Below are positions 3,583-25,640 of a stretch of DNA of 25,700 nucleotides, piece after piece. A program made the translations under genes and the position numbers. Below the pieces are notes generated by a model. It saw only the letters and a list, made by a program, of their open reading frames with translations. It did no database searches and was not told where the DNA came from. Position 1 is the first letter of the stretch. Each line of letters starts with the position of its first letter. The stretch is from a virus. The stretch is from the IMG/VR virus record IMGVR_UViG_3300029448_000384, positions 1 to 25,700 of that record; one strand, given 5' to 3'.

Positions 3583-5148
3583 TTAAATTGTTGCTCTACG
3601 TCTTATATTCGCTAACTGGTTCTGACTGTTAGTCATTTCGTCTGTAACTACAAACGCTTTGACAGGTTCTGGTGCTTCTCCTCCAGTTAATTCAAAAGCC
3701 CCTGACATCATTTGAGGTGCTGGTGCTGCTGCTGCTGCTGCACCGCCTCCTCCGCCTCCTCCTCCGCTTCCACCTACTGGAGTTGATAGTATTGTGTTTA
3801 CATTGGCAAGACCTGCAATTATAATTCCTGCTGCTGCGGCAATACCTGCAATACCTGCTTGACCAAGTGCTTTATTCGCACCTACGTAAGTGTCTATAAT
3901 AGCCTGACCAACGGCTAGTTCTTTACTTTCTCCTGCTAAGGCTTGTAGTCCTCCTGCAAGCCCTGAGAACGCTTCTAATTGAGTGTTGACTTGTTCTTGT
4001 GCGATTTTAGATTTTTTGTCAGCAAATTGTTTGTCAATAGCAGTGGTATCCATTCCTGATTTTCTAGCCATATCTAATTTTTGCTGATACGCAGTTTCAA
4101 GTTCTTGCAACTCTCTCTCAATACCTGACAACCCTTCTGCTCTAAGTTCATTCTGCGTTTCTAAAAGCTCTCTTTCTAAAGATACTTGATTAGTCTTTTG
4201 CTCAGACAATTGACCAGTAATAGTTTCTTCAAGTTCTAGCATTGCTACTTTTTGCTCTTGTAATGCTATGTAGTTTTCTTCGCTATCATTTATATTAAAT
4301 TGAGCCTGTGCAGAATCAATTTGTAATTGTATTTGTGCTTTTTGCGCTTCTTGTTGCTCTGCTAAAATTTTATCTAACTTTTCATTGGCTGCTATTCTTT
4401 CTTGGAAAGTCTTAGTTTCATCATCTCTTATTTGTCTCTGAACTTCAGCGTCTTTTAAATATTGAGCATTTAACTTAGCAAATTCTACTGCTGCCCTTTG
4501 TGCCGCTTTATTTGTTTCAGTTATAGCAGCTGCTTGTTTAATTGTTTCTTTAGTATAATTAGAAACCACATCTACTGCTTCTGTAACCGTATCAACCACT
4601 TTGTCAAAAGAATCATCTACACCTGTGGCAACATCTACCAATTCTTTACCTGCCATCTTAGCAAAGTCTGCTGCCTCACTAAAGTTCCCTTTAAATAAAG
4701 AAGACAAAGCACTTCCTACATAGCCAAAAGTATCTAATAGACTATTAAACCTTTCTATAAGGTTGTTTTGAATCATCTCAGAAAAATCTAGTAAAGCCTG
4801 TTTAGGGTCTTCAAATATAGATTTAAAAAAGCCTGTAAACTTACTTACATTTTCTGCCAAGAAATTAAACAAATCATTGAAGGCTATGTTTAAAGCCGTC
4901 ATAGCAGTATTAAAAGTGTCTAATACTTTTTGATTTTTACTAAACACTTCCATAAGTTTAGCTATCAACCCAACAATAATACCAATACCTGCTGCTTTTA
5001 ATGCTGTTCCCATGCCTTTGATCACTCCGCCTAATCGCTTAAATCCTCCACCCGCCTGACCTGTTGCCTTGCCTAAATCTTTGACCTCTTTAGTTACCGC
5101 ACCAACATTTGATTTTACTTCTAATTCTAAAACTTCTTTATCTGCCAT
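3583..5148 (-). CDS. Tail tape measure protein
   Basis: This 521-residue protein sets tail length and probably helps DNA passage. Layout: a polar N-terminus with Gly-rich turns (residues about 28-45), a hydrophobic segment near 50-65 (AAGIGIIVGLIAKL), a helical region, long Gln/Glu-rich coiled coil from about 215 to 400, a second hydrophobic stretch near 430-455 (AGIAAAAGIIIAGLANV), then a run of Gly followed by Ala (about 460-482) and a polar tail. This is the standard tape-measure architecture. At roughly 0.15 nm per residue it predicts a tail near 75-80 nm. Unusually, it lies downstream of the tail-tip genes, directly before the head protease. Confidence 0.85.
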   Translation of the reverse strand: MADKEVLELEVKSNVGAVTKEVKDLGKATGQAGGGFKRLGGVIKGMGTALKAAGIGIIVGLIAKLMEVFSKNQKVLDTFNTAMTALNIAFNDLFNFLAENVSKFTGFFKSIFEDPKQALLDFSEMIQNNLIERFNSLLDTFGYVGSALSSLFKGNFSEAADFAKMAGKELVDVATGVDDSFDKVVDTVTEAVDVVSNYTKETIKQAAAITETNKAAQRAAVEFAKLNAQYLKDAEVQRQIRDDETKTFQERIAANEKLDKILAEQQEAQKAQIQLQIDSAQAQFNINDSEENYIALQEQKVAMLELEETITGQLSEQKTNQVSLERELLETQNELRAEGLSGIERELQELETAYQQKLDMARKSGMDTTAIDKQFADKKSKIAQEQVNTQLEAFSGLAGGLQALAGESKELAVGQAIIDTYVGANKALGQAGIAGIAAAAGIIIAGLANVNTILSTPVGGSGGGGGGGGAAAAAAPAPQMMSGAFELTGGEAPEPVKAFVVTDEMTNSQNQLANIRRRATI

Positions 5149-5159
5149 ATCTTTTTATT

Positions 5160-6005
5160 TTAAACTTTCATTTCATAAAGGTTGAGAGTACAACTCCATG
5201 TTATATCCATATCTCTAGCTCCTGTAACTTGCAAGTGCATGTCGTTAGTACCGCTAAAATCAATCGCTGCAGTCCATCCGTCAACTGTTCCATAACTACC
5301 TAATGTTGAAACCGATTGGTTGTCTGCTTTCAAATAAGCTATACCTGTTGCCCGTAATAATATTCTATCATATACATTACCAGCTGCTGTGCCTCCTGTT
5401 CTTACACCCATTACATTAGCTTCAAAGCCTGTAAATGATGTTGTTGTCGCTGATGAATCTCTAGCAATTGTTGTTATACCACTAACCCCATTAACCAGTA
5501 TGTTTGTTGGAGCTTCATCGTCTGTATTTCCTGATAAATGTATTATTGAACTTTGACTTTTACCTAAAGAATCACCACCACCACCCATAACAACTTCCCC
5601 ATCTCTTTGTGCTAAACCATAAGAACCTAAAACAGCAGCATTATTTGCTCCAATTCCAGCATCATATAATATTCCTACCTGATTATTACTACCTATTACA
5701 ATATTATTTCTTGAGATACCTCTAACCCAATTGGATTCTCCCATTATATAAGTATTGTTAACCCCCTTTTCAGTTGTGTTGTTCGCACCTTGAACATAGT
5801 TATTTTCATCAATTAGACTTTGACCTATGTTGTAGTTAAATACATAAGCCCTACATGTCCCCGAAGATTTGTCATAAGTGTATCCGTAGGCTTCACATGC
5901 AGCCTGATTAGGGTGTACACTGTTAGTTCCATCAGTAAATAAAACTTCTCCTGAAGTGGATGTAAGTGCTGGTTTAATTGAGTATCCTGGTAAAAAATCT
6001 GCCAT
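5160..6005 (-). CDS. Tail fibre or receptor-binding protein candidate
   Basis: This 281-residue protein has a short N-terminal region with SVHPNQAACEAYGYTYDKSS (residues about 29-48) plus a second Cys. Next comes a repeat-rich segment (about 60-130) with repeating Asn-Asn and Gly turns, such as NNYVQGANNT, NNTYIMGESN and NNIVIGSNNQVG, which resembles the YadA-head type of left-handed beta-roll. A Gly/Ser-rich beta region follows, and the last 70 residues look like a compact receptor-binding or trimerisation domain. It is coupled by TAATG to the large tail-tip gene upstream and is followed by the tape measure. Receptor binding is inferred from architecture. Confidence 0.55.
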   Translation of the reverse strand: MADFLPGYSIKPALTSTSGEVLFTDGTNSVHPNQAACEAYGYTYDKSSGTCRAYVFNYNIGQSLIDENNYVQGANNTTEKGVNNTYIMGESNWVRGISRNNIVIGSNNQVGILYDAGIGANNAAVLGSYGLAQRDGEVVMGGGGDSLGKSQSSIIHLSGNTDDEAPTNILVNGVSGITTIARDSSATTTSFTGFEANVMGVRTGGTAAGNVYDRILLRATGIAYLKADNQSVSTLGSYGTVDGWTAAIDFSGTNDMHLQVTGARDMDITWSCTLNLYEMKV

Positions 6006-8923
6006 TATGGTATAAGTATAAATTCAACAGTTGATAAATCTTTTGGCTTGTAGTCTATCTTATTTACTCTAAATTGTCTATTTTTAATAAACACAGTGGA
6101 ATACATATCAAAAGTGGATATATCTGCAGGAGATAAATTAACTTTAAGAATCATTATTCTTGTGTCTGCATTGTATAGCTCCCCGAGATATGGCAACCAA
6201 TACTTGGTAAATAAATTTATAACAGGGGTCAGCCCCATTGCAGTTACTAATTGATGATCTCCAAAATTAAAATCTTGACTATCACCTGATTGTGGAGGAT
6301 TGTTTACAACTGTAGGTACGGCTGTCAAATGGCTAAAACGCAAGTATTGTGTTACATCTGCTGAAACTACTCCATTTTGAGATGGTATTTTATACGAAAA
6401 TGGTAAGTTCACAAGACCATTTAAATATAATAGTCTCGGACTATTTTCAAAGGCTGAAGAAGTGCCATCACTAGAGTCATAAGAATAGATTGATGGAACT
6501 ATAAGGTCAGGGTATTGCGACATCAAAGGTTTGCAAAAAGTCGCTCCAAATGGCTCTGCTGTAATTTCTTCTTCACCCTCTAATATGGTAAATCCTGAAG
6601 CATCATAAACTTTACTGCCCCATAAAGCCCCTCCATTATCTCTCTTGTAAACATTAACAGCATAATCATCATCATCTTCTGCAAACTTAAATGTTGTTTT
6701 TTTATTTAAATCTGTTAAAGGGGTTAGTTTCACCTCTTCAACACTTATCTTATCAGTCCAGTCATGTGCTATACCCCTTGAAACTAAACTTGTACCACTT
6801 GTGTTTTCTATAAATACATCCTTGTATGGTTCTATTATAAGATTAGAAGGATCTGTTTTGTCAGGTATTGTTATCAGATTAAACATATTCATGATACCTT
6901 TTAAAAACTCCCATTGGTTTAATTCGCCCCTTAGGGTTTGCAGTAAAGTAGCACCAACTGTATTGTTTACCCCTGTTATTATAGTTACATTATTTCCTAT
7001 ATAAGGGAAAGGGGCGATATTACTTCCTAAAATTGCCATGTCATTACCAGAGTTTTGTATTGTTTTGAACTTTAACGTATCGCCTGTATTCATCACAACA
7101 TAGAAGTTGCCTGTAAGATTGTAGTTATTACCAGTTCCCGTAGATGTTCCACTAGTCGAAAGAACCCCAGTACTATTATAATTTGTTTGAAGACCCCCAG
7201 TAGTTTCATGCACCCACTTACATGTAAAGGTTGAAGTTCCAACAGCGTTCTTCACATAAAATAACATGTCATAATTAACGCTGTAAACCTGGTTGTTCGC
7301 AGTAGCAGTAAATGTACCACCACTATAACCAAAGTCAGCATCTAATGTAGTCTGAGGCCCGTTAAAAAAGACACTTAATTCATGAAAATTAACCGTCTGA
7401 TAATATGCTTCTAAGTCAAAGATACCCTTAAAAGCAAGTCCTCCCGAGTTAGAGAATACACGTGGAGTTTCAGCATCTCCCCAATTAAAATCCATAAATA
7501 AATTCTCAAATAATGATGTATTCAAAAAAGTACTTGTGTAAGAAAAAGGGAAAGCAGGCTGGTTGAATATTCTATCAATTAAATACTTTACATTTATAAA
7601 AGGCCTAAATGTGCCCTCTAAATTTACAAGCTCAGGATTACCATTACTTTGCACTATATATTGATGCTCCCAATCGCAAAAAGGATACCTGACAGTTCCG
7701 CCATCTCTGAATCCTGAAGTACCCGTATTAGTATAAGACAAACTCCCTGACCAACTTAATTGAATATTTGTCCTTGTGTATCCGTGATCTAATTCTGAAA
7801 AATCTAAATCATAGAACTCTCTTTCTTTTAAAACATCAGCCAACGCTACTGCTTCTGAATAAAGATTGACGTTAAAACTTATTTCACCTTTTTTGTCTTG
7901 TATATCGATAAGCCTTAAATACCCCTCAAATAAAACAATCCCATCTTCTTTTAATCTGCATTGTGTTTTTATATAGGGGTTAAATTGTAGTGTTCCTTGC
8001 GAAGACCTTGTTATTTCAAATACGTGATCAAATATTCTACTATTTCTTTTTGTTGATGGTAAATTAAATGCTTTAGAATATGACTGTACTTTTTCAGCTA
8101 CATTTTTAAAATCATCAACACTTAAAGTTAAAGGGATGTCTTCATCTTCATAAAGATCACAAATAACAGAACCATCTCCAACTATACCACTAAGCTCACC
8201 CCCATGTGAGTACACAATCGAAACACTGTCAATTGCTAGAATAATATTATTATCAAGCGTAGCCGAAAGAACAAAAACATCAGCCTCACTTTCGGCAGTA
8301 AATTGTCTAGTAAAAACCTGTCCAGATGTTGATCCTGTTATAGGGGATATTGGGGTGTATGCTCCAGGAGCAAAAGGGGTTGATGTTAAAGGTGTTCCAG
8401 TCATCCCATTTACACCATTAATCATATCACCATTACCAAATGTACAACCAAAATATAATTTATTATTGCTAGGAACTCCGCCTACTGCTGAAACTGTTCC
8501 TATTGTAACTGTTATTGTGTATTCCATTCCCACTGTAAGGCCAGCTATTCTTTGAGCTATACCTGTTATTGCGGGCTTATTATCTCCTGCTCCCGCCCCC
8601 TTCAAGAAAACCTCTCCTTGGTTATAAGTCGGCCAATTAGGAACAGTTCCTGTTGCAGCACCATTTCTAAATGCCATCCAAGAGCCTGCCCCTATTGCAC
8701 TACCATAATTAACTATATTAAGAGCCACTAAAGCAGATTGAATAGTAGGGAGAGCTCCTGCTGCTATTGATGCTGAACTTGTGACTGCATTAGTGTTTCC
8801 ATTTCCATCAAAAACTATGGTATTAAATAGCTCTCCATTAGAAACCATTTCAGGGCCTATTGGATAATAATCAGCTAAAAAGCCGTCATAGTTTTGTGGT
8901 AATACTTCTAGTTGTACACTCAT
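6005..8923 (-). CDS. Large baseplate / tail-tip protein with N-terminal beta domain
   Basis: This is the largest protein (972 residues). A short start (MSVQLEVLPQNYDGF) leads into a Gly/Thr/Asn-rich beta domain of about 230 residues that looks like a carbohydrate-binding jelly roll. From about residue 255, a long conserved-looking tail part begins (CDLYEDEDIPLTLSVDDFKN, then KVQSYSKAFNLPSTKRN and FEGYLRLIDIQDKKGEISFN). The C-terminus ends with KDLSTVEFILIP. The ORF starts by TAATG coupling with the previous tail gene. Such long proteins in Bacteroidetes phages usually form the tail tip or hub. No peptidase motif was recognised. Confidence 0.6.
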   Translation of the reverse strand: MSVQLEVLPQNYDGFLADYYPIGPEMVSNGELFNTIVFDGNGNTNAVTSSASIAAGALPTIQSALVALNIVNYGSAIGAGSWMAFRNGAATGTVPNWPTYNQGEVFLKGAGAGDNKPAITGIAQRIAGLTVGMEYTITVTIGTVSAVGGVPSNNKLYFGCTFGNGDMINGVNGMTGTPLTSTPFAPGAYTPISPITGSTSGQVFTRQFTAESEADVFVLSATLDNNIILAIDSVSIVYSHGGELSGIVGDGSVICDLYEDEDIPLTLSVDDFKNVAEKVQSYSKAFNLPSTKRNSRIFDHVFEITRSSQGTLQFNPYIKTQCRLKEDGIVLFEGYLRLIDIQDKKGEISFNVNLYSEAVALADVLKEREFYDLDFSELDHGYTRTNIQLSWSGSLSYTNTGTSGFRDGGTVRYPFCDWEHQYIVQSNGNPELVNLEGTFRPFINVKYLIDRIFNQPAFPFSYTSTFLNTSLFENLFMDFNWGDAETPRVFSNSGGLAFKGIFDLEAYYQTVNFHELSVFFNGPQTTLDADFGYSGGTFTATANNQVYSVNYDMLFYVKNAVGTSTFTCKWVHETTGGLQTNYNSTGVLSTSGTSTGTGNNYNLTGNFYVVMNTGDTLKFKTIQNSGNDMAILGSNIAPFPYIGNNVTIITGVNNTVGATLLQTLRGELNQWEFLKGIMNMFNLITIPDKTDPSNLIIEPYKDVFIENTSGTSLVSRGIAHDWTDKISVEEVKLTPLTDLNKKTTFKFAEDDDDYAVNVYKRDNGGALWGSKVYDASGFTILEGEEEITAEPFGATFCKPLMSQYPDLIVPSIYSYDSSDGTSSAFENSPRLLYLNGLVNLPFSYKIPSQNGVVSADVTQYLRFSHLTAVPTVVNNPPQSGDSQDFNFGDHQLVTAMGLTPVINLFTKYWLPYLGELYNADTRIMILKVNLSPADISTFDMYSTVFIKNRQFRVNKIDYKPKDLSTVEFILIP

Positions 8924-10368
8924 TATATTGATTGTGTTCTTAAAGTTCTACTTTTCTCTACTTCAAAAGTATATTGTAAAAGCCTGTCATTTGCAATTGT
9001 CTTTCTAGTAAAGCTAGATGTTTTTAGTGTTACTGGTGTCAAATACCTGTTTAGAGTATCCGTATTAGAAGGCACTTGTTCAAATCCTTTTAAAATATAA
9101 ACTTCAGGGCTGTTTGTAAGTTCTTCAAACATAATATTATTATCTTCGGTTACAAAACCCGTATTCATAGTAATAGATTCGGTAGCGTTCTTTCTAAACG
9201 CTTTCTTTCCACCTTTATATCCTCCAACTTTATAATAAGAAGAACTCCATGTGCCTTTAAGTTGGTCGTATGTTGTTCCTTTTGTAGATATTTTTGTGGT
9301 TGACTTTTGAGTAAATGTATAGTAATCCCATGCACCCCATTGATTCAACCAACAGAGTCTAATGCTTTCATAACCTTTTAAGTTAGGGCAATTTAACTGT
9401 ATAGTATATGTCTTAGTACTTACAGTACCACCACCATCACTTCCAAGGCTAAGTGTGATTTTACCCCCATCCATTTGTCCTAAATCATATTTAGTTTTAA
9501 AAGTGCTACTCCAATTCCTAAGATTACCAGGAAAACATCCTACATATTGAAATTGATTTTTTGTATTGTCTACGCCCTGATTAGATCCCCAATAACTAGA
9601 GCCGTTTTGAACAGACCTTACAATGTTTTCAGATCCTAATAAAGAACCATCGCTGCTGTAGTATTTCAATATTAGTTTTCTAGCAGCTTGACTTTGAGCG
9701 AAAGTTCTTGCTAAAAAAGCTACCGTTCCATAGTCATCACCATTAGCATACTGAACGTCTGGAGCATTAGTTAAAAACTTTATAGTTGAATCACCTGCTG
9801 TCGGGAAAAATCCACTCATATCAAACCCGAAATAATTAGCAGGAGCTGTAGTTGTTCTATTCCGTAATTCATCTGTATCTTTTAAGTACCCATTAGTAAT
9901 TAAATAATTTACAGAAGAAACACCTGAGCCTGTAACATTAGCAACAACATTAGACCCTGATGCTACTCCTTCAGTTGTAATTCTAAGTGCCATGTATCTA
10001 GCACTGTATTTACTAAAAGAATATTTGTCAATTAAGTGCATTGGGTGGCTTAAAATGTCTGTTGTTGTATCACCCTTGAAACTACTCCCATCAGCAGCTA
10101 AATTGTCAGTACTAACATAGTCTTCTATAATACTACTCAGATCAATCATTCCTACTCCAGAATTATTGGGTGTTATTTTAAAGGTAGCTATTTTGTCAGC
10201 ACCCGTAGATAGTACAGGGGGAGAGCCCTCACTTATATGTACGTCAATCACAAATTTCACTCTCGTATGGCTTATTAAAATTGGGGTATTTGAAAATGCA
10301 AATATTATCTCTTGACCTGCTACTAATGTTTGATATAGTGGTGTTTGTTCTATTGTTGTTACTGACAT
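8923..10368 (-). CDS. Distal tail / tail-tip structural protein
   Basis: This 481-residue beta-rich protein has no recognised enzymatic motif. The first 100 residues (PLYQTLVAGQEIIFAFSNTP) look like a beta-sandwich attachment domain. Around residues 335-360 the aromatic stretch SIRLCWLNQWGAWDYYTF occurs, a feature I associate with tail-tip proteins of Bacteroidetes phages. The end (TIANDRLLQYTFEVEKSR) is beta-strand-like. It lies between a tail-completion gene and the large tail-tip gene and is coupled to the latter by TAATG. A Dit-like role is an inference from position and size. Confidence 0.5.
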   Translation of the reverse strand: MSVTTIEQTPLYQTLVAGQEIIFAFSNTPILISHTRVKFVIDVHISEGSPPVLSTGADKIATFKITPNNSGVGMIDLSSIIEDYVSTDNLAADGSSFKGDTTTDILSHPMHLIDKYSFSKYSARYMALRITTEGVASGSNVVANVTGSGVSSVNYLITNGYLKDTDELRNRTTTAPANYFGFDMSGFFPTAGDSTIKFLTNAPDVQYANGDDYGTVAFLARTFAQSQAARKLILKYYSSDGSLLGSENIVRSVQNGSSYWGSNQGVDNTKNQFQYVGCFPGNLRNWSSTFKTKYDLGQMDGGKITLSLGSDGGGTVSTKTYTIQLNCPNLKGYESIRLCWLNQWGAWDYYTFTQKSTTKISTKGTTYDQLKGTWSSSYYKVGGYKGGKKAFRKNATESITMNTGFVTEDNNIMFEELTNSPEVYILKGFEQVPSNTDTLNRYLTPVTLKTSSFTRKTIANDRLLQYTFEVEKSRTLRTQSI

Positions 10369-10374
10369 TTTATT

Positions 10375-10911
10375 TTATTTTGTAAATGTTGTTATATAAG
10401 TAGATACGTCTTGTTTAAATTCTTTTAAAAGAGTTCCTTGCAATTCTTTATAATTGACGCCTAAAGGTCTTGAAAAGAAGCTAATGCTTTTAATTCCCTC
10501 TCTTTTTATTTTCTTACTTATTAAATAAGCAAATCCTGAAACATATTGTCCTGTATTTTTTGACCTTCCTCTTCCCAATCCTTTTGGTTTTATTCCTTTC
10601 TTTTTTATCCACTTAGAAAGTATATCAATAGGAGGCCCTTTTGTTGTGTACTTGTAAGGGCTTGATTTTATTCTAGTTCCATCAGAATAAGATATTGGAT
10701 TCTTATTACCTGAAACCCCTTTGTCTAAAAATGTACCATAGTCAGCCATGTAAAATTTAACACTATACCCATTGGGATCAGTTGTGACCTTAGCCCTTAT
10801 TGACTTACCCAAAGCTGTACCACCCTTTTTACTTTGCAAAAGTTTTTTAGAATCGTTAACAACTTGTTGTGCGAAACTATTAAGATACCTTTCTAAGTTT
10901 TCAGTTTTCAT
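10375..10911 (-). CDS. Tail completion / neck protein, HK97 gp10-like
   Basis: This 178-residue basic protein starts with a helix (MKTENLERYLNSFAQQVVND), followed by a Lys-rich region and the segment FYMADYGTFLDKGVSG (about 53-68). It ends with KSISFFSRPLG and a C-terminal helix. The pattern 'Y-G-x-F-x-D-x-G' with a later aromatic 'FF-x-R-P' is found in HK97 gp10-like and related tail completion proteins. It lies among other small connector-size genes upstream of the tail-tip genes. The start follows the preceding stop without a gap. The family link is from memory of motifs, not a search. Confidence 0.5.
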   Translation of the reverse strand: MKTENLERYLNSFAQQVVNDSKKLLQSKKGGTALGKSIRAKVTTDPNGYSVKFYMADYGTFLDKGVSGNKNPISYSDGTRIKSSPYKYTTKGPPIDILSKWIKKKGIKPKGLGRGRSKNTGQYVSGFAYLISKKIKREGIKSISFFSRPLGVNYKELQGTLLKEFKQDVSTYITTFTK

Positions 10912-11361
10912 TTAGACTACGGCTACGAATACTTCTACATTTGCATCATCTGTGCTTCTTGGCTTCACTGTTATCTTTGTAATATCTTGCAGTGTTGTAA
11001 AAGTTGCGGTTGCAGACGCTACACCAAGAACAGTTGTATCTGCTTGGCATAAAACATGAGATGCTGAAGGTGTTAATACTACTGTATAACTTGTGCTCTC
11101 ACCACTAATTGCTAAATCCATGTTTGCAGTTTCACTTATATTTGTTACTCTAATATACTTAGTATTTTCTAAGTCTATTGCACCTGCACTCCCATAAACA
11201 TTACTATTAAAAGTTGCTACAATAGTTTCATTTGAATGGGGACATGTTACTGTTCTTTCAAATGTATTTGCAATATTTGCTACTGTTAATGTGTTTGATG
11301 AACCTCTTAATGCACCATTCACGGTTACACTCTCGGATATTGTTACTACTAAATCTGCCAT
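10912..11361 (-). CDS. Small beta-rich virion protein
   Basis: This 149-residue protein (MADLVVTISESVTVNGALRG start) is rich in Thr, Val, Ser and Ala and almost free of long helices. It looks like a single beta-sandwich, with strands visible as alternating hydrophobic residues (YIRVTNISETANMDLAISG). Similar short MADL-starting proteins occur in marine phages as decoration or minor tail proteins. It lies inside the neck/tail block. I cannot tell whether it decorates the head or the tail. Confidence 0.5.
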   Translation of the reverse strand: MADLVVTISESVTVNGALRGSSNTLTVANIANTFERTVTCPHSNETIVATFNSNVYGSAGAIDLENTKYIRVTNISETANMDLAISGESTSYTVVLTPSASHVLCQADTTVLGVASATATFTTLQDITKITVKPRSTDDANVEVFVAVV

Positions 11362-11716: not shown

Positions 11717-11802
11717 AGTCTTATTTTAATTGTTGGTGGTATTATCTTTATCTCTACTTTACCAATCTTTATCGTATTTAATTTCTTTAAGAACTCTATC
11801 AT
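11713..11802 (-). CDS. 29-residue basic micro-ORF
   Basis: The ORF starts MIEFLKKLNTIKIGKVEIKI and exactly fills the gap between its neighbours. Its ATG shares a base with the upstream stop (TGATG at 11804-11800), and its TGA overlaps the downstream ATG (ATGA at 11716-11713). It is basic and rich in Ile and Lys, with no recognised domain. The double coupling supports translation; the function is unknown. Confidence 0.55.
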   Translation of the reverse strand: MIEFLKKLNTIKIGKVEIKIIPPTIKIRL

Positions 11803-12350
11803 CAGTACCCTGCTCCTTTAGTGTCAACTGGAATCTGACATGTACTAAAGTCATTCATTACTTTTATGCCTATTGTAAATGTCCATCCACACAACAAATT
11901 GTCAAACCTTTCTTGAAATGGCTCAATATTAAACTGGTCTTCTGTAAAGTAAAGAGGTTCATTAATATCATTAACACCAAATAAAGATTGCCTTGTACTA
12001 TGTCTTAGCATTCCAATAAAATCAGTACATATCTCTAATGTTTGATTCCATACTTGTTGTTCATTGTTTTTTGCGTCAATTAGTTTTGTAAGCAACTCGT
12101 TTTGTTTTACTTGCCAATCGTCTTTCTCGCTTACTAAGTCGCATATAAACAATTGAAAGTTATATATCAACTCAGAATCTCCTGTTGCTACATTGGTAGG
12201 GTTTATGTGCAACAAAGGCATCTTTTCCATCTTTTCTAAGTTGATGTCAAATATATCTCCAACAGAAACAGTTGATATTTGATTGTGATACTCACCTAAT
12301 CTACACAATGTGTTTATTACGTTATTATATGTTTTATTGCTTACTGGCAT
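11802..12350 (-). CDS. Probable tail terminator / neck protein
   Basis: This 182-residue protein begins with a helix (NKTYNNVINTLCRLGEYHNQ), followed by strands with PLLHINPTNVATGDSELIYN and a region ending FDNLLCGWTFTIGIKVMNDF. This mixed alpha/beta arrangement, with a final pair of strands after a 'D-N-x-x-x-G-W' turn, is common in tail terminator and completion proteins of Bacteroidetes phages. It follows the tail chaperone gene. Its N-terminal codons overlap the end of the frameshifted chaperone by 17 bases. Function is inferred from position and shape. Confidence 0.45.
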   Translation of the reverse strand: MPVSNKTYNNVINTLCRLGEYHNQISTVSVGDIFDINLEKMEKMPLLHINPTNVATGDSELIYNFQLFICDLVSEKDDWQVKQNELLTKLIDAKNNEQQVWNQTLEICTDFIGMLRHSTRQSLFGVNDINEPLYFTEDQFNIEPFQERFDNLLCGWTFTIGIKVMNDFSTCQIPVDTKGAGY

Positions 12351-13112
12351 GTTTTACTTTATTTTGTGATTCTAAATCTGTTTCATAACTCAACCAAGTT
12401 AGTGCTTCTAAAAGATTGAGCTTCGTAATTGCATCTAATTTTGATATGTCTGCATTTGTCAATCTATACATTACTCCAAACCAACTCCATTTTTCTGCGA
12501 AGGATTCTGAGGCAATAGCTTCTTGATTTCCTTCAGACGTTCCATTAAATATGATGGCAAAGTCTTCAACAATTCGTTGCCTAAATTGTAAAAAAAAACC
12601 AGTGCACTTTGCACTTGCTCTGCTGACATCTTTTTCATTTCTTCCGCCCGTATACTTATATTTCCATCGTAGGCTTCAATAATATAAATATCATTCTTTT
12701 CTTCTACTATGGGTCTGTACAGAATAGCCATTAATTCAGGCAGGTTTTTATCAATATCATTTTTGATAAACGTCTCTATGTCTGCATACTCCCCTAGCGT
12801 TATATCATCTAAGTTTGGATGAAATCCATATCTCTTACCCCCTACTTCAATTATCCTTTTTAAAGAACTATCTTGCTTCTGTTGCATCTCAGAAACCCTC
12901 CCCATTAAAACCGCAACATCTTTTAATTCCAGTTGATTGATTGTATTCTTTGGAATATTAGATAATGCCTCTATTGTATCTCTCGCCTCCTCACTCTTTG
13001 TGCCCTCTTGGAAGTCAAGTAGCTTTAGCCACTTCTCTAGTGTTACCTCCTTCCAGCTACTAATTAATTTAAACTCCTTCTTTTTGCCGTCCTTCTTAAT
13101 CCTAACCTTCAT
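12334..13112 (-). CDS. Tail assembly chaperone, frameshifted long form (gpGT-like)
   Basis: A -1 shift on the U9 run (12598-12590) would join 174 zero-frame residues to 85 residues of the -1 frame, giving 259 residues ending at the TAA at 12336-12334. The extension is open without interruption and has protein-like sequence: SFAEKWSWFGVMYRLTNADI, then KLDAITKLNLLEALTWLSYE. The 'EKWSW...Y.L...DI..L' pattern resembles the T domain of tail chaperones. The last 45 residues can also start at the ATG at 12471 (TAATG overlap), so a separate small protein is the alternative. The shift itself is inferred from sequence. Confidence 0.7.
12471..13112 (-). CDS. Tail assembly chaperone, short form (gpG-like)
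   Basis: The zero-frame product has 213 residues. It starts MKVRIKKDGKKKEFKLISSW and contains the conserved-looking block YGFHPNLDDITLGEYADIET (about 94-113) and a helical C-terminal part (MKKMSAEQVQSALVFFYNLG). Such proteins bind the tape measure during tail assembly. The evidence for the role is a U9 run near codon 174 that opens the -1 frame into a second domain, as in gpG/gpGT pairs. A late control element touches its start codon. The zero frame stops at TAATG, where an internal ATG of the extension also begins. Confidence 0.7.
   Translation of the reverse strand: MKVRIKKDGKKKEFKLISSWKEVTLEKWLKLLDFQEGTKSEEARDTIEALSNIPKNTINQLELKDVAVLMGRVSEMQQKQDSSLKRIIEVGGKRYGFHPNLDDITLGEYADIETFIKNDIDKNLPELMAILYRPIVEEKNDIYIIEAYDGNISIRAEEMKKMSAEQVQSALVFFYNLGNELLKTLPSYLMERLKEIKKLLPQNPSQKNGVGLE
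12590..12598 (-). other. U9 slippery site for -1 frameshifting
   Basis: The minus strand reads GTT TTT TTT TAC in the zero frame, which contains the in-frame heptamer U UUU UUU. A one-base backward slip continues as TTA CAA TTT AGG, the open extension frame. No strong downstream stem was noticed by eye. Confidence 0.65.
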
Positions 13113-13167: not shown

Positions 13168-13253
13168 GTTTGTATTCATTTTACTTTTGAAGGGGAGTAG
13201 GACATTCTATTTTTTAAGTTATTATATCTTCTTTCAACCTGCTCCCCTTTTTT
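13168..13253 (+). ncRNA. Candidate plus-strand small RNA
   Basis: This is a predicted transcript of about 86 nt between a plus-strand promoter and a plus-strand terminator. It contains no convincing ORF. It would be the only transcript on this strand. It ends three bases inside the 3' end of terL. The roles that come to mind are a regulatory antisense RNA at the terL/chaperone junction, or a structured RNA linked to packaging; neither can be decided from the sequence. Confidence 0.45.
13189..13253 (+). terminator. Plus-strand terminator with long loop
   Basis: GAAGGGGAGUAGG (13189-13201) pairs with CCUGCUCCCCUUU (13238-13250), 13 pairs including two G-U wobbles, followed by U's to 13253. Both wobbles would be A-C mismatches in minus-strand RNA, so the helix fits plus-strand RNA. 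The loop is 36 bases, longer than usual. Confidence 0.55.
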
Positions 13254-14454
13254 ACTGCACAAAATATTTACCTGCATTCGGATTGTCTAAATGATATATA
13301 ACATTATATCTCACTCCATCAATAGCATGATTCCAATTGTCAATGTATAACTTAGAGCCTTTGTCTTGATATGCGTAATTGTTTAGCTCTTTAGCTATAT
13401 TAGTTGACTCAGGTGTAATGACTAAGTGATAATCCTGCATTCTTGTTATACCACTTTCAATAGTTCCCTTTTTAACAGGCTTTATGTTTACCCCTAAATG
13501 CTTTAAGTCTGCTATTAGTCTAGGCTCTGCGGAATCAGCGATAATCAACTTCTGCTCTACCTTTTCTAATATTAGCTGTGCTAAGTCGTGAGACTTTAAT
13601 CCGTTCTTGTATATGTGTTCTTTTAAATATATCTTTTGCTTCTTTTTGTCAATAGCCACTTCTGTTAAACTATCAGGATCAACGCTAAAACCAAAGTCCA
13701 TACCGCATGACGTTTGTAATCCATCTGGATTGAATTCACCTATACTCCAGTTGTCAAATACTACTCCTTCTGCACGTTCTAACCAACCACCCATTATTTT
13801 ATGCTGATACTTTTTAAAGTTGTTATGCTTTATGGTCTCTATACGCTCTAGGAAGCTCTTAGAGAGGTTTTCTTCATTGTCTAGGTATGTACTATGGATA
13901 TAGCATACATTGTCTCTAACGCCATTAAAACCAGCTTCAACTCCTTTGTCTTCAAAGAATCTTTTGTATATCCAATGTTCTTTAGTAACAGGATTGAGTA
14001 TAAGTATGATTCTGTTCTGTATTTCTTTTTCTCTAATACTTAAATCTATTGTATCAAATATATCTTCGTCAATTAGTTCTTCTGCCTCGTCAAGAATCCA
14101 ATTTGATACGCCTGTCAATGATTTAAGACTTGCAGTTTGATTTCCTGCTGACGTTTTGATCCCTCTAAATAAAATATCAGACTTATTCTTTAAATTGACA
14201 ACCTCTGCTTTATTAATGCTGAATATACTTTCATATCCTAATAGTGTTATCTTTTCTAAGAACTCAGGTATGATTGACAGGTGTGCTGATACCATTGTGT
14301 ATCTTGTAAACAATACTCTAATGTTTCTTGTCATTGTGAGTAATGTTAAAAAGACTGTAACAGCAAAAGACTTACCAGAACCCCTACCACCTGTTATTAT
14401 ATAATAACGGCAGTCAGATGTAAATAGTGGATTGTATTTCTCGCTAAGATTCAG
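13252..14454 (-). CDS. terL: Terminase large subunit (PBSX/Terminase_3 type)
   Basis: This is the packaging ATPase and nuclease, 400 residues if read from CTG at 14454. Walker A is GGRGSGKS at residues 22-29; Walker B is WILDEAEE (Asp/Glu about 122-123). Nuclease acidic residues lie in GMDFGFS (Asp 253), IIADSAEP (Asp 307) and NHAIDGVRY (Asp 379). The first ATG, at 14334, would remove Walker A, so it cannot be the real start. The frame upstream is closed by TGA at 14460-14458, leaving CTG 14454 as the only plausible in-frame start. One A fewer in the AAAA at 14458-14455 would restore a GTG start (GTG AAA CTG), so a real or assembly indel is possible. Confidence 0.9.
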   Translation of the reverse strand: MNLSEKYNPLFTSDCRYYIITGGRGSGKSFAVTVFLTLLTMTRNIRVLFTRYTMVSAHLSIIPEFLEKITLLGYESIFSINKAEVVNLKNKSDILFRGIKTSAGNQTASLKSLTGVSNWILDEAEELIDEDIFDTIDLSIREKEIQNRIILILNPVTKEHWIYKRFFEDKGVEAGFNGVRDNVCYIHSTYLDNEENLSKSFLERIETIKHNNFKKYQHKIMGGWLERAEGVVFDNWSIGEFNPDGLQTSCGMDFGFSVDPDSLTEVAIDKKKQKIYLKEHIYKNGLKSHDLAQLILEKVEQKLIIADSAEPRLIADLKHLGVNIKPVKKGTIESGITRMQDYHLVITPESTNIAKELNNYAYQDKGSKLYIDNWNHAIDGVRYNVIYHLDNPNAGKYFVQ

Positions 14455-23071: not shown

Positions 23072-23646
23072 TATGTTAAATCAGGAGTTAAAAAATCTCT
23101 CAATGTAAGTTTTGTTCCTTGATTCATTGGTCTTTCTAGGTTCATGCCATTATAATATGCATTGCTATCTGGAGAAACATCAGCCCCTGAATTAGTAGAG
23201 TATTCTGGAAAGCTTGACGTATTATTTCTAACATATTCAATCATTCTCTCGGTGTAATACTGAGCTGTATTAACAATCTCCTCTCGCAGATGTTGTGCTT
23301 CTTCAGTACTTAAAGCTGTTCCTGTTTCTGATGTTTTAGAGTATATGTTTCCATTTTCAATTTTAAAACGTAAAAAAGGAATGGCATGCCAAAAAGAATA
23401 GTTCACCAAAACAAAAGAGATATAGTCCTCTAGCAAAGTCTTGTAAGCTGCATTTGCTACATCACCTACTGTTCCTGCTGTAATTAGATCCTTTAGCTTC
23501 TGAGTTAAATCAGTGCCCAATTTAGTTTCAATATATAATTTTTGACTCTGTAAAATATAAGGGCGCAAGAGCGTTGGATCGCAATTCAGATTGATTGCGC
23601 TTAAATCTTTTAATTTTTGTTCTGATATAAATAGTACGTATGCCAT
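23071..23646 (-). CDS. Head-tail connector protein (DUF6712-like)
   Basis: This 191-residue helical protein starts MAYVLFISEQKLKDLSAINL and contains RPYILQSQKLYIETKLGTDL (about 28-47), a DYISFVLVNYSFWHAIPFLR segment and EEIVNTAQYYTERMIEYVRN. This resembles the adaptor or head-completion proteins of Bacteroidetes phages, which sit below the portal. It follows the portal gene after five bases, the usual place for a connector. Confidence 0.65.
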   Translation of the reverse strand: MAYVLFISEQKLKDLSAINLNCDPTLLRPYILQSQKLYIETKLGTDLTQKLKDLITAGTVGDVANAAYKTLLEDYISFVLVNYSFWHAIPFLRFKIENGNIYSKTSETGTALSTEEAQHLREEIVNTAQYYTERMIEYVRNNTSSFPEYSTNSGADVSPDSNAYYNGMNLERPMNQGTKLTLRDFLTPDLT

Positions 23647-23651
23647 AATTA

Positions 23652-25640
23652 TTATTCTAAAAATCCTTCATTCTTCATAGTCTTAGGCGCTCTCGCAACT
23701 AGACTGTCATTTCTTTTAATTGTAAAACCTTCACTTCTAGCTTTTGTAGCAGTTATAATTTTATCAGTTGTTATATTGTCTGGATAAACTACAAATCCTT
23801 CGTCGCTTGCAGGCGCTTGGAAGATCCTACGTTTCCAGTAGTGATGGCAGTTGCCGCCTCCCTTAAAAAGCCAGCAACTATACGTTGCAGCTCCTCTAGG
23901 TCCCCATCCTGGATTTACAGGTATTGTTGACATTCTTAAAATATCCTCCTTCCTGTAAACTTTTTTTGTCGCCATCATAAGCTTGCAAAAGCTTCTTGTT
24001 TCTCCTTCTTGACTTAAAGAGTTATTTCTAGTGTAAACATATCTAACTTTAAAGAACTCATCTCCTGCTTTATTAAGACCATCCTGTTCACTTCTTACAT
24101 TTGGATTAGCTCTACCAGTTCTAACAAAATCAAATTTTTCACTTGCAACTTTATTTAATTCTTTTTCAAAATCGAAGTCTTGATGTTCTCCATCTACTAT
24201 TTCATCATCTATCATCTCCCATCCTTCTGGCATATCTTCGCCATACTCTTCAATAAATTTAGAAAGCTCCGTAGCTTCTTCATGCCCTTCACACGCCATA
24301 TAAGCCGTTCTCCCTTCATATTCATGCTCATGGTACCCCTCGCACCCCACGGTCTTTGCATGCGCCTCAGCCTCTTCTATTGTGCTAAAAACAGGCTTTC
24401 CATCAATCATACCCACCTTACTAAAATCTTCCCTTACTTCAACGTCTAATGGTTTAAGCCCCATCTCCTCTCTCAATTCATCTTCTGTAAGAATTCCTTT
24501 TAAGTCTTCTGACGTAAATTCTAATGTGATTGGTTTTAACTGTACAAATTCAACAGGTAAATCCATATCGTTTACTGAGAATATAGTTTGTAAAGTATTT
24601 TTGATATTTAGTTGGAACGGAATAATCACAGTATTGAGATAAAAATTAAAGGCTGAATTAAGTTCGTCAACATTTGATCCTAATCCTGTGTCGTTTTTAA
24701 TACCCATTAGCATAGGGCTTGTTACACGATGCCCTGTAAGGATGTTTTGAACAAGTAGTTCTTGGAGTGCTAAATATTGTTTATCTGCGTCAGAAACGCT
24801 TATAGGCGTTATCTCAGGCGTTCTAGTACGGTCTTCTGAGAAACTTAAAATAAATTTACCACTATTGGAAGCCCCCGTGAATTTTTCAGTAAGACTTCTT
24901 TCTATTTGCATTCTCTCTTCCTGCGTTGGGATTCCATTTGCGAAACTCACAAAGTATGAGCCACTAAATCCGTTCTCTATATTGTTGAGATGAAACTCTG
25001 CAACTTTTTGATCTACTAAAGCCCAGTTGTTTGCAGCAACATAATCTGGCGTATGGTATATGTCCATATTAGGACTATAAGAACCTGCGTATAATAATTG
25101 ACTTGTTGCTGTTCTATCGTTTCTATTAAAAGCTGAAATAGGATAAGGCTTGTGTGTTCTTGTATTTGCCCAATCAGCACTTATAAAATATGTATCTACT
25201 TGCCCCATCTCATTAGGTCTTCCTGCTCTTACTCTTTCAACAGGCACGTGGTAAACCTCAGAGATTTGCGTTCTTTCACGATTCCAAATAATGTGTAAAG
25301 CATACGCCCCTTGTAACTTAAAGTCAAAAGCAACCTTTTTAATTACTTGATGTAAAGATTCTTTAGAGTTTGCACTTCTTAAAAACTTCTTTAATCTTAC
25401 GTAAGCGTCTAAATTAGTATCTTCATCAGAAGCGATTAGGTCTTTGCCACCGATCATTTCCGCAGTAGCGTTTACGATCGCAGCGTGAGTTGAAGAATTA
25501 TAATAAAGATCAATAAGAAATTGCGGATATAAATTTTTCCAGTTTTCAGTTCCGTATTCTACATAGTCTTTACCTCTTGCCTCTTGCACTACTGGAGCTG
25601 TTGCTGTTTCGAGATTAATTGAGATGATATTGTCTTTCAT
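23652..25640 (-). CDS. Portal protein with long C-terminal extension
   Basis: This 662-residue protein forms the DNA entry ring of the head. The portal core covers about residues 1-400: WKNLYPQFLIDLYYNSSTHA, YHVPVERVRAGRPNEMGQVD, LQELLVQNILTGHRVTSPML followed by GIKNDTGLGSNVDELN, and ELREEMGLKPLD. Beyond 400 it carries an acidic region with a short Cys/His cluster (GCEGYHEHEYEGRTAYMACE), then a C-terminal domain (about 545-662) with RSFCKLMMATKKVYRKEDIL, NPGWGPRGAATYSCWLFKGG and NCHHYW. The extension is probably an extra domain exposed inside the head; its role is unknown. The gene starts 11 bases after the end of the ORF from the right edge. Confidence 0.85.
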   Translation of the reverse strand: MKDNIISINLETATAPVVQEARGKDYVEYGTENWKNLYPQFLIDLYYNSSTHAAIVNATAEMIGGKDLIASDEDTNLDAYVRLKKFLRSANSKESLHQVIKKVAFDFKLQGAYALHIIWNRERTQISEVYHVPVERVRAGRPNEMGQVDTYFISADWANTRTHKPYPISAFNRNDRTATSQLLYAGSYSPNMDIYHTPDYVAANNWALVDQKVAEFHLNNIENGFSGSYFVSFANGIPTQEERMQIERSLTEKFTGASNSGKFILSFSEDRTRTPEITPISVSDADKQYLALQELLVQNILTGHRVTSPMLMGIKNDTGLGSNVDELNSAFNFYLNTVIIPFQLNIKNTLQTIFSVNDMDLPVEFVQLKPITLEFTSEDLKGILTEDELREEMGLKPLDVEVREDFSKVGMIDGKPVFSTIEEAEAHAKTVGCEGYHEHEYEGRTAYMACEGHEEATELSKFIEEYGEDMPEGWEMIDDEIVDGEHQDFDFEKELNKVASEKFDFVRTGRANPNVRSEQDGLNKAGDEFFKVRYVYTRNNSLSQEGETRSFCKLMMATKKVYRKEDILRMSTIPVNPGWGPRGAATYSCWLFKGGGNCHHYWKRRIFQAPASDEGFVVYPDNITTDKIITATKARSEGFTIKRNDSLVARAPKTMKNEGFLE

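Follow-up and report, generated by a model that had tools for sequence, protein, structure and literature searches.

A single gene in this marine phage DNA probably gives rise to two proteins through a -1 slip at a run of nine U residues, which is overall the best explanation of what follows. The window, meaning the whole stretch of DNA analysed, is a 25.7-kb IMG/VR virus record (25,700 nucleotides), and the gene lies on its minus strand. The zero-frame ORF (12471..13112, minus strand; "G" below) has an unshifted product of 213 aa and matches PHROG 32199 with an E value of 1.5e-16. The run, at 12590..12598 on the minus strand (A9 on the plus strand), falls within codons 172-175 of G, GTT TTT TTT TAC. 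Exactly as the original prediction had placed it, at codons 172-174, the run contains a U UUU UUU heptamer in the zero frame (12597..12591), a property that every nine-T run has in any phase. Read in the -1 frame from 12591, 85 sense codons follow, with a stop at 12336..12334, and this extension (12334..12591, minus strand; "T" below), to which relatives are homologous from residue 1, has the translation LQFRQRIVEDF...EKWSWFGVMYRL...LLEALTWLSYE...HASKQ. Joined to G codons 1-174 it gives a fusion of 259 aa with the junction ...ALVFF-LQFRQRIVEDF..., and the predicted end of the extension at 12334 and product size of about 259 residues are thus borne out by the sequence.

In the proposed scheme, most products would end in the zero frame as G, presumably the major form, while a minority would slip -1 at U UUU UUU, add the 85 codons, and end as the G-T fusion (GT). 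Both would act on a tape-measure protein, much as gpG and gpGT do in lambda, and the slip would be made by the ribosome rather than by RNA polymerase. Lambda-type pairs are characterized by a -1 (or +1/-2) shift near the 3' end of G, with G binding the tape measure, T binding the major tail protein, and tails requiring a ratio of the two. The nine-T run is the only A/T run of at least nine in the whole window. At the base composition of the window, the probability that 85 codons of a fixed frame stay open is ~0.001, and the longest of 604 stop-free -1 segments within its other genes is 59 codons. Before the run, too, the -1 frame stays open for 28 codons, so the open frame by itself cannot place the shift site; it is placed by the nine-T run together with the switch in conservation that is found there.

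G and the T extension were searched separately against IMG/VR (80 loci per query). Both were present in all 160 sequences compared, with T in the -1 frame relative to G. More distant relatives were reached via Nonlabens phage P12024S and via a distant T domain used as a single-protein query. The P12024S-based scan included the pattern FFYHLGND, a source of bias toward FF in that set; the G-query and distant-T-query sets were found without any pattern across the run. The IMG/VR relatives, with identities down to ~27% and with Nonlabens phage P12024L included, together gave 202 distinct junctions, 189 with T9 and 13 with T10. T runs and open -1 frames, which the original prediction had suggested looking for in related genomes, are therefore found throughout this set. 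Neither of the patterns it had named as counter-evidence was seen: no run shorter than nine T's occurs among the 202 distinct junctions, and none of the loci examined has T as a gene of its own.

Among the same 202 junctions the run occurs in two codon phases, and it is intact despite altered flanking residues (VFFY, LFFY, IFFY, FFFY, RFFFV/RFFFA), being displaced by one codon in the RFFFV/RFFFA relatives. Just seven other T runs of at least nine are found on the same strand across 592 kb of loci. Homology of T begins at the first codon past the run in every relative set. The nine- or ten-T switch is judged to be real and under strong selection because it is present at all 202 distinct junctions; sequence comparison also establishes the frame of the fusion, the point of the slip, and an overlap that codes in both frames.

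Two cultured phages have the same arrangement. P12024S (a Nonlabens/Persicivirga phage, Inhavirus) has the same T9 in the same place, within codons CTT TTT TTT TAT, with T in the -1 frame. The equivalents in P12024S and P12024L are ~27-30% identical for G and ~28% for T, with the terminase upstream as in the window; their G differs in having the first 10-15 residues missing and a shorter C-terminus. In P12024S the G-T fusion would have ~230 aa. In the annotation of P12024S, G is gp38 and most of T is gp39, both "hypothetical", and the frameshift is not noted. P12024L has the same run and the same annotation as two separate hypothetical genes. The gene split in this way lies at 23136-23830 in P12024S (NC_018271.1) and at 23946-24640 in P12024L (NC_018272.1). 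A profile search of the extension against PHROGs, proposed in the original prediction, did yield a match, PHROG 38404 (55 positions; 39 of 57 T domains, best E 2e-41), but the function of this family is listed as unknown. Judging by its length, it appears to be a clipped P12024S gp39. For G, PHROG 32199 matches all 63 members.

Profile comparison also identifies a distant homologue of G in Flavobacterium phage 6H, gp10, which is a few genes upstream of the annotated tape measure. This gene (locus 10047-10927) ends CFFYSTR with a six-T run only, and a T-like ORF (~105 codons) is present in the -1 frame behind a stop; because of the intervening stop, 6H must reach this ORF in another way, if at all. 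A contig scan of assembled genomes turned up two loci only, both on phage contigs, one binned into an archaeal MAG and the other into a Pseudooceanicola MAG; these do not fix the host, since binning is unreliable for this purpose.

Tail chaperones studied experimentally use ribosomal frameshifting. This, and the fact that the heptamer is in frame, favor the ribosome as the agent of the slip, with the reservation that an in-frame heptamer always lies within a run of this length. A ribosomal slip is considered slightly more probable than not, one that is transcriptional in whole or in part a substantial but smaller possibility, and some other cause improbable. In transcriptional slippage, RNA polymerase would stutter on the nine T's and add one U, leaving mRNAs of heterogeneous length, and the U10 transcript would read into T. 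The resulting protein is identical to that from a ribosomal -1 slip, so protein sequence cannot separate the two. The idea can be put forward only tentatively, and in its favor is the length of the run, which is at least nine in 202 of 202 junctions where a ribosomal heptamer requires seven. In many bacteria, selection against slippage-prone A/T runs also sets in at a length of nine (Baranov 2005, PMC1088944). The two outer T's are explicable, however, by amino-acid constraint in both frames: the zero frame has V, L, I or F before FF and Y, W or F after it, and the first residue of T in the -1 frame is L or F. Since this constraint may be what holds the outer T's, run length fails to discriminate between ribosome and polymerase.

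Two further observations would fit slippage by the polymerase. No other slippery heptamer replaces the T run in any relative examined, whatever their diversity, and no RNA stimulator was found: none of eight stretches had a fold more than 2 sd better than shuffles, and no consensus RNA structure was detected downstream of the run in 31 sequences. Such structures are reportedly dispensable for some phage frameshifts (PMC5009743), which makes them a common rather than a defining feature.

Whichever machinery slips, the products are probably tail assembly chaperones, an indirect assignment that draws on the presence of tape-measure and tail genes, gene layout, predicted fold, and profile matches. 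The AlphaFold model of G has a pLDDT of 86.8, and its terminal long helix (residues 164-199) holds the slip site. When this fold was compared with BFVD, the matches were one "Tail assembly chaperone" (E 0.018), P12024S gp38, and a 6H protein taken as gp10 from its length of 191 residues. Profile matches to relevant families are weak: Pfam Phage_TAC_7 (PF10109) for five of 63 members (best E 0.041), the tail protein family PHROG 166 (best E 6.5e-4), and the chaperone family PHROG 4976 (E 0.028). Pfam and NCBIfam scans otherwise gave weak or chance matches only, and no firm match of G or T to a curated family or a solved structure (PDB) was found by profile and model searches, a result that falls short of proving that none exists. 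Fold matches for T were set aside because its model is of low confidence (pLDDT 68).

The genes around G and T are in the order terminase, G/GT, tail-completion-like, HK97 gp10-like. The upstream neighbor (13252..14334, minus strand) encodes the terminase large subunit (PHROG terminase, E ~1e-32) and is 64% identical to TerL of P12024S. The next gene downstream (11802..12350, minus strand; 182 aa) is called tail-completion-like from inspection and from its position in relatives; its ATG, at 12350, gives it a 17-base overlap with the end of the T extension. The protein has no PHROG or Pfam match; the equivalent position and a similar motif are seen in two relatives, where the tail-completion-like and gp10-like followers were called by eye. 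A probable tail tape-measure protein of 521 aa is encoded at 3583..5148 (minus strand), with PHROG tape measure matches at E 3.6e-11 and 3.8e-9 and a hydrophobic segment around residue 432, and this is probably the client to be expected for a G/GT chaperone. It is ~7 kb downstream of G/GT on the same strand. Of the lambda G/GT-type layout originally proposed, then, the conserved -1 shift and the extension hold up, but the gene adjoins the terminase and is not between a major tail protein and the tape measure. Gene position is a usual rather than a strict feature, and formal membership of a lambda-type family is for this reason not claimed.

Elsewhere in the window, a 972-aa protein encoded at 6005-8923 (PHROG 38559, E 6e-9, without a Pfam match) is likely a tail protein by its position. 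Probable major capsid and major tail proteins were recognized by inspection at 1162-2070 and 527-1093; their placement after the tape measure and protease is unusual compared with lambda-type phages.

The position of G/GT on the terminase side, so far from the tape measure, together with the weakness of the chaperone family and fold matches, could be taken to mean that the frameshift is real but the proteins serve some purpose other than chaperoning of the tape measure, for example head-tail joining. This seems unlikely, given that tail chaperones have as their hallmark a G-like ORF with a final long helix and a -1 extension of ~85 residues, that one of the fold matches is to an annotated chaperone, and that the homologue in 6H is found upstream of a tape measure. 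Tail assembly chaperones therefore remain the preferred reading of G and GT.

Codon-position variability in 74 aligned relatives changes frame at the run. It is highest at the third position of the zero frame before the run and at the third position of the -1 frame from just beyond it almost to the end of T. Neither frame has a stop codon between the run and the point where the zero frame ends, and in this part the -1 frame is the more constrained of the two. In near relatives the zero-frame stop follows the run by ~25, 40 or 49 codons; in distant ones the interval is 16 to 84 codons. While this stop shifts, the length of the T extension is stable at 80-92 codons.

These comparisons also bear on a 45-codon ORF with a TAATG start (12334..12471, minus strand). 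Its location after the zero-frame stop, which the original prediction took to be explained by the frameshift, is as described there, and it forms an internal portion of the T extension. As a separate gene it is probably not real. The TAATG is found in the window, in some relatives, and at gp39 of P12024S, so that ribosomes finishing G could in principle restart there and make a separate 45-residue T protein by coupled re-initiation. The ATG is not a conserved start, however: many relatives lack it or any nearby start, while the T protein is conserved anyway. In some distant relatives the zero-frame stop is 55-84 codons past the run, far inside T, and conservation of T and the codon signature of the -1 frame both begin at the run, ~40 codons before the ATG. 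GTAATG can also be taken as the codons for a conserved V-M pair within T and does not have to serve as a start. Since relatives do not keep the ATG consistently, re-initiation is rejected as very improbable. Most improbable of all is a homopolymer miscount, to which some sequencing methods are prone, or a decayed gene or broken fusion; this is rejected on the uniform conservation of the -1 relation, which is the same in all loci, across many independent metagenomes as well as two cultured phages; moreover, no in-frame G-T fusion was seen among the relatives compared and purifying selection acts on either side of the run. A -1 slip within a single gene remains the explanation adopted here.

The site can be set beside several known ones. 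Lambda has the slippery site G GGA AAG, in contrast to the U9 run here. The P2-type tail chaperones E/E' have U UUU UUG and a -1 shift, and thus share the U-rich heptamer and the direction of the shift, with a shorter run; the sequence comparison with them covers the weak Phage_TAC_7 (PF10109) matches. In lambda gpG/gpGT, a -1 shift near the end of the chaperone ORF gives, as a minor product, a fusion that carries a separate C-terminal domain (PMC5009743). Similarly, the shift near the end of the G ORF would here give a C-terminally extended fusion, and by analogy the lambda ratio mechanism (PMC5009743) may apply. No sequence relationship to lambda gpG/gpGT was detected, and compared with lambda G is larger (213 aa), the zero frame continues for 16-84 codons past the run, and the gene adjoins the terminase instead of directly preceding the tape measure. 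Transcriptional slippage at runs of nine A or T residues has been described for Thermus dnaX and for IS elements (PMC1088944); these have the run of nine in common with the present site, where addition of one base would give the identical product.

Tail chaperones with a frameshift already form a known kind, and the present site is an unusually uniform example. A literature search, mostly outside subscription papers, returned no report of this site in flavobacterial phages or of transcriptional slippage in a tail chaperone. The finding amounts to a recoding site that is widely conserved among phages of marine and fresh waters that are related to flavobacterial phages. It indicates that the records of two cultured phages split the recoded gene in two, and it identifies the T-domain family PHROG 38404 with the shifted part of a probable tail chaperone. 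With a single kind of slip site across the 202 junctions, these phages also offer a clean system for asking whether such ratios are set by the ribosome or by the polymerase. It is conceivable, if less than likely, that RNA polymerase slippage at the strictly kept U9 determines the G/GT ratio in this large clade of flavobacterial-type phages, in which case tail-chaperone stoichiometry would be fixed at transcription and not by the ribosome.
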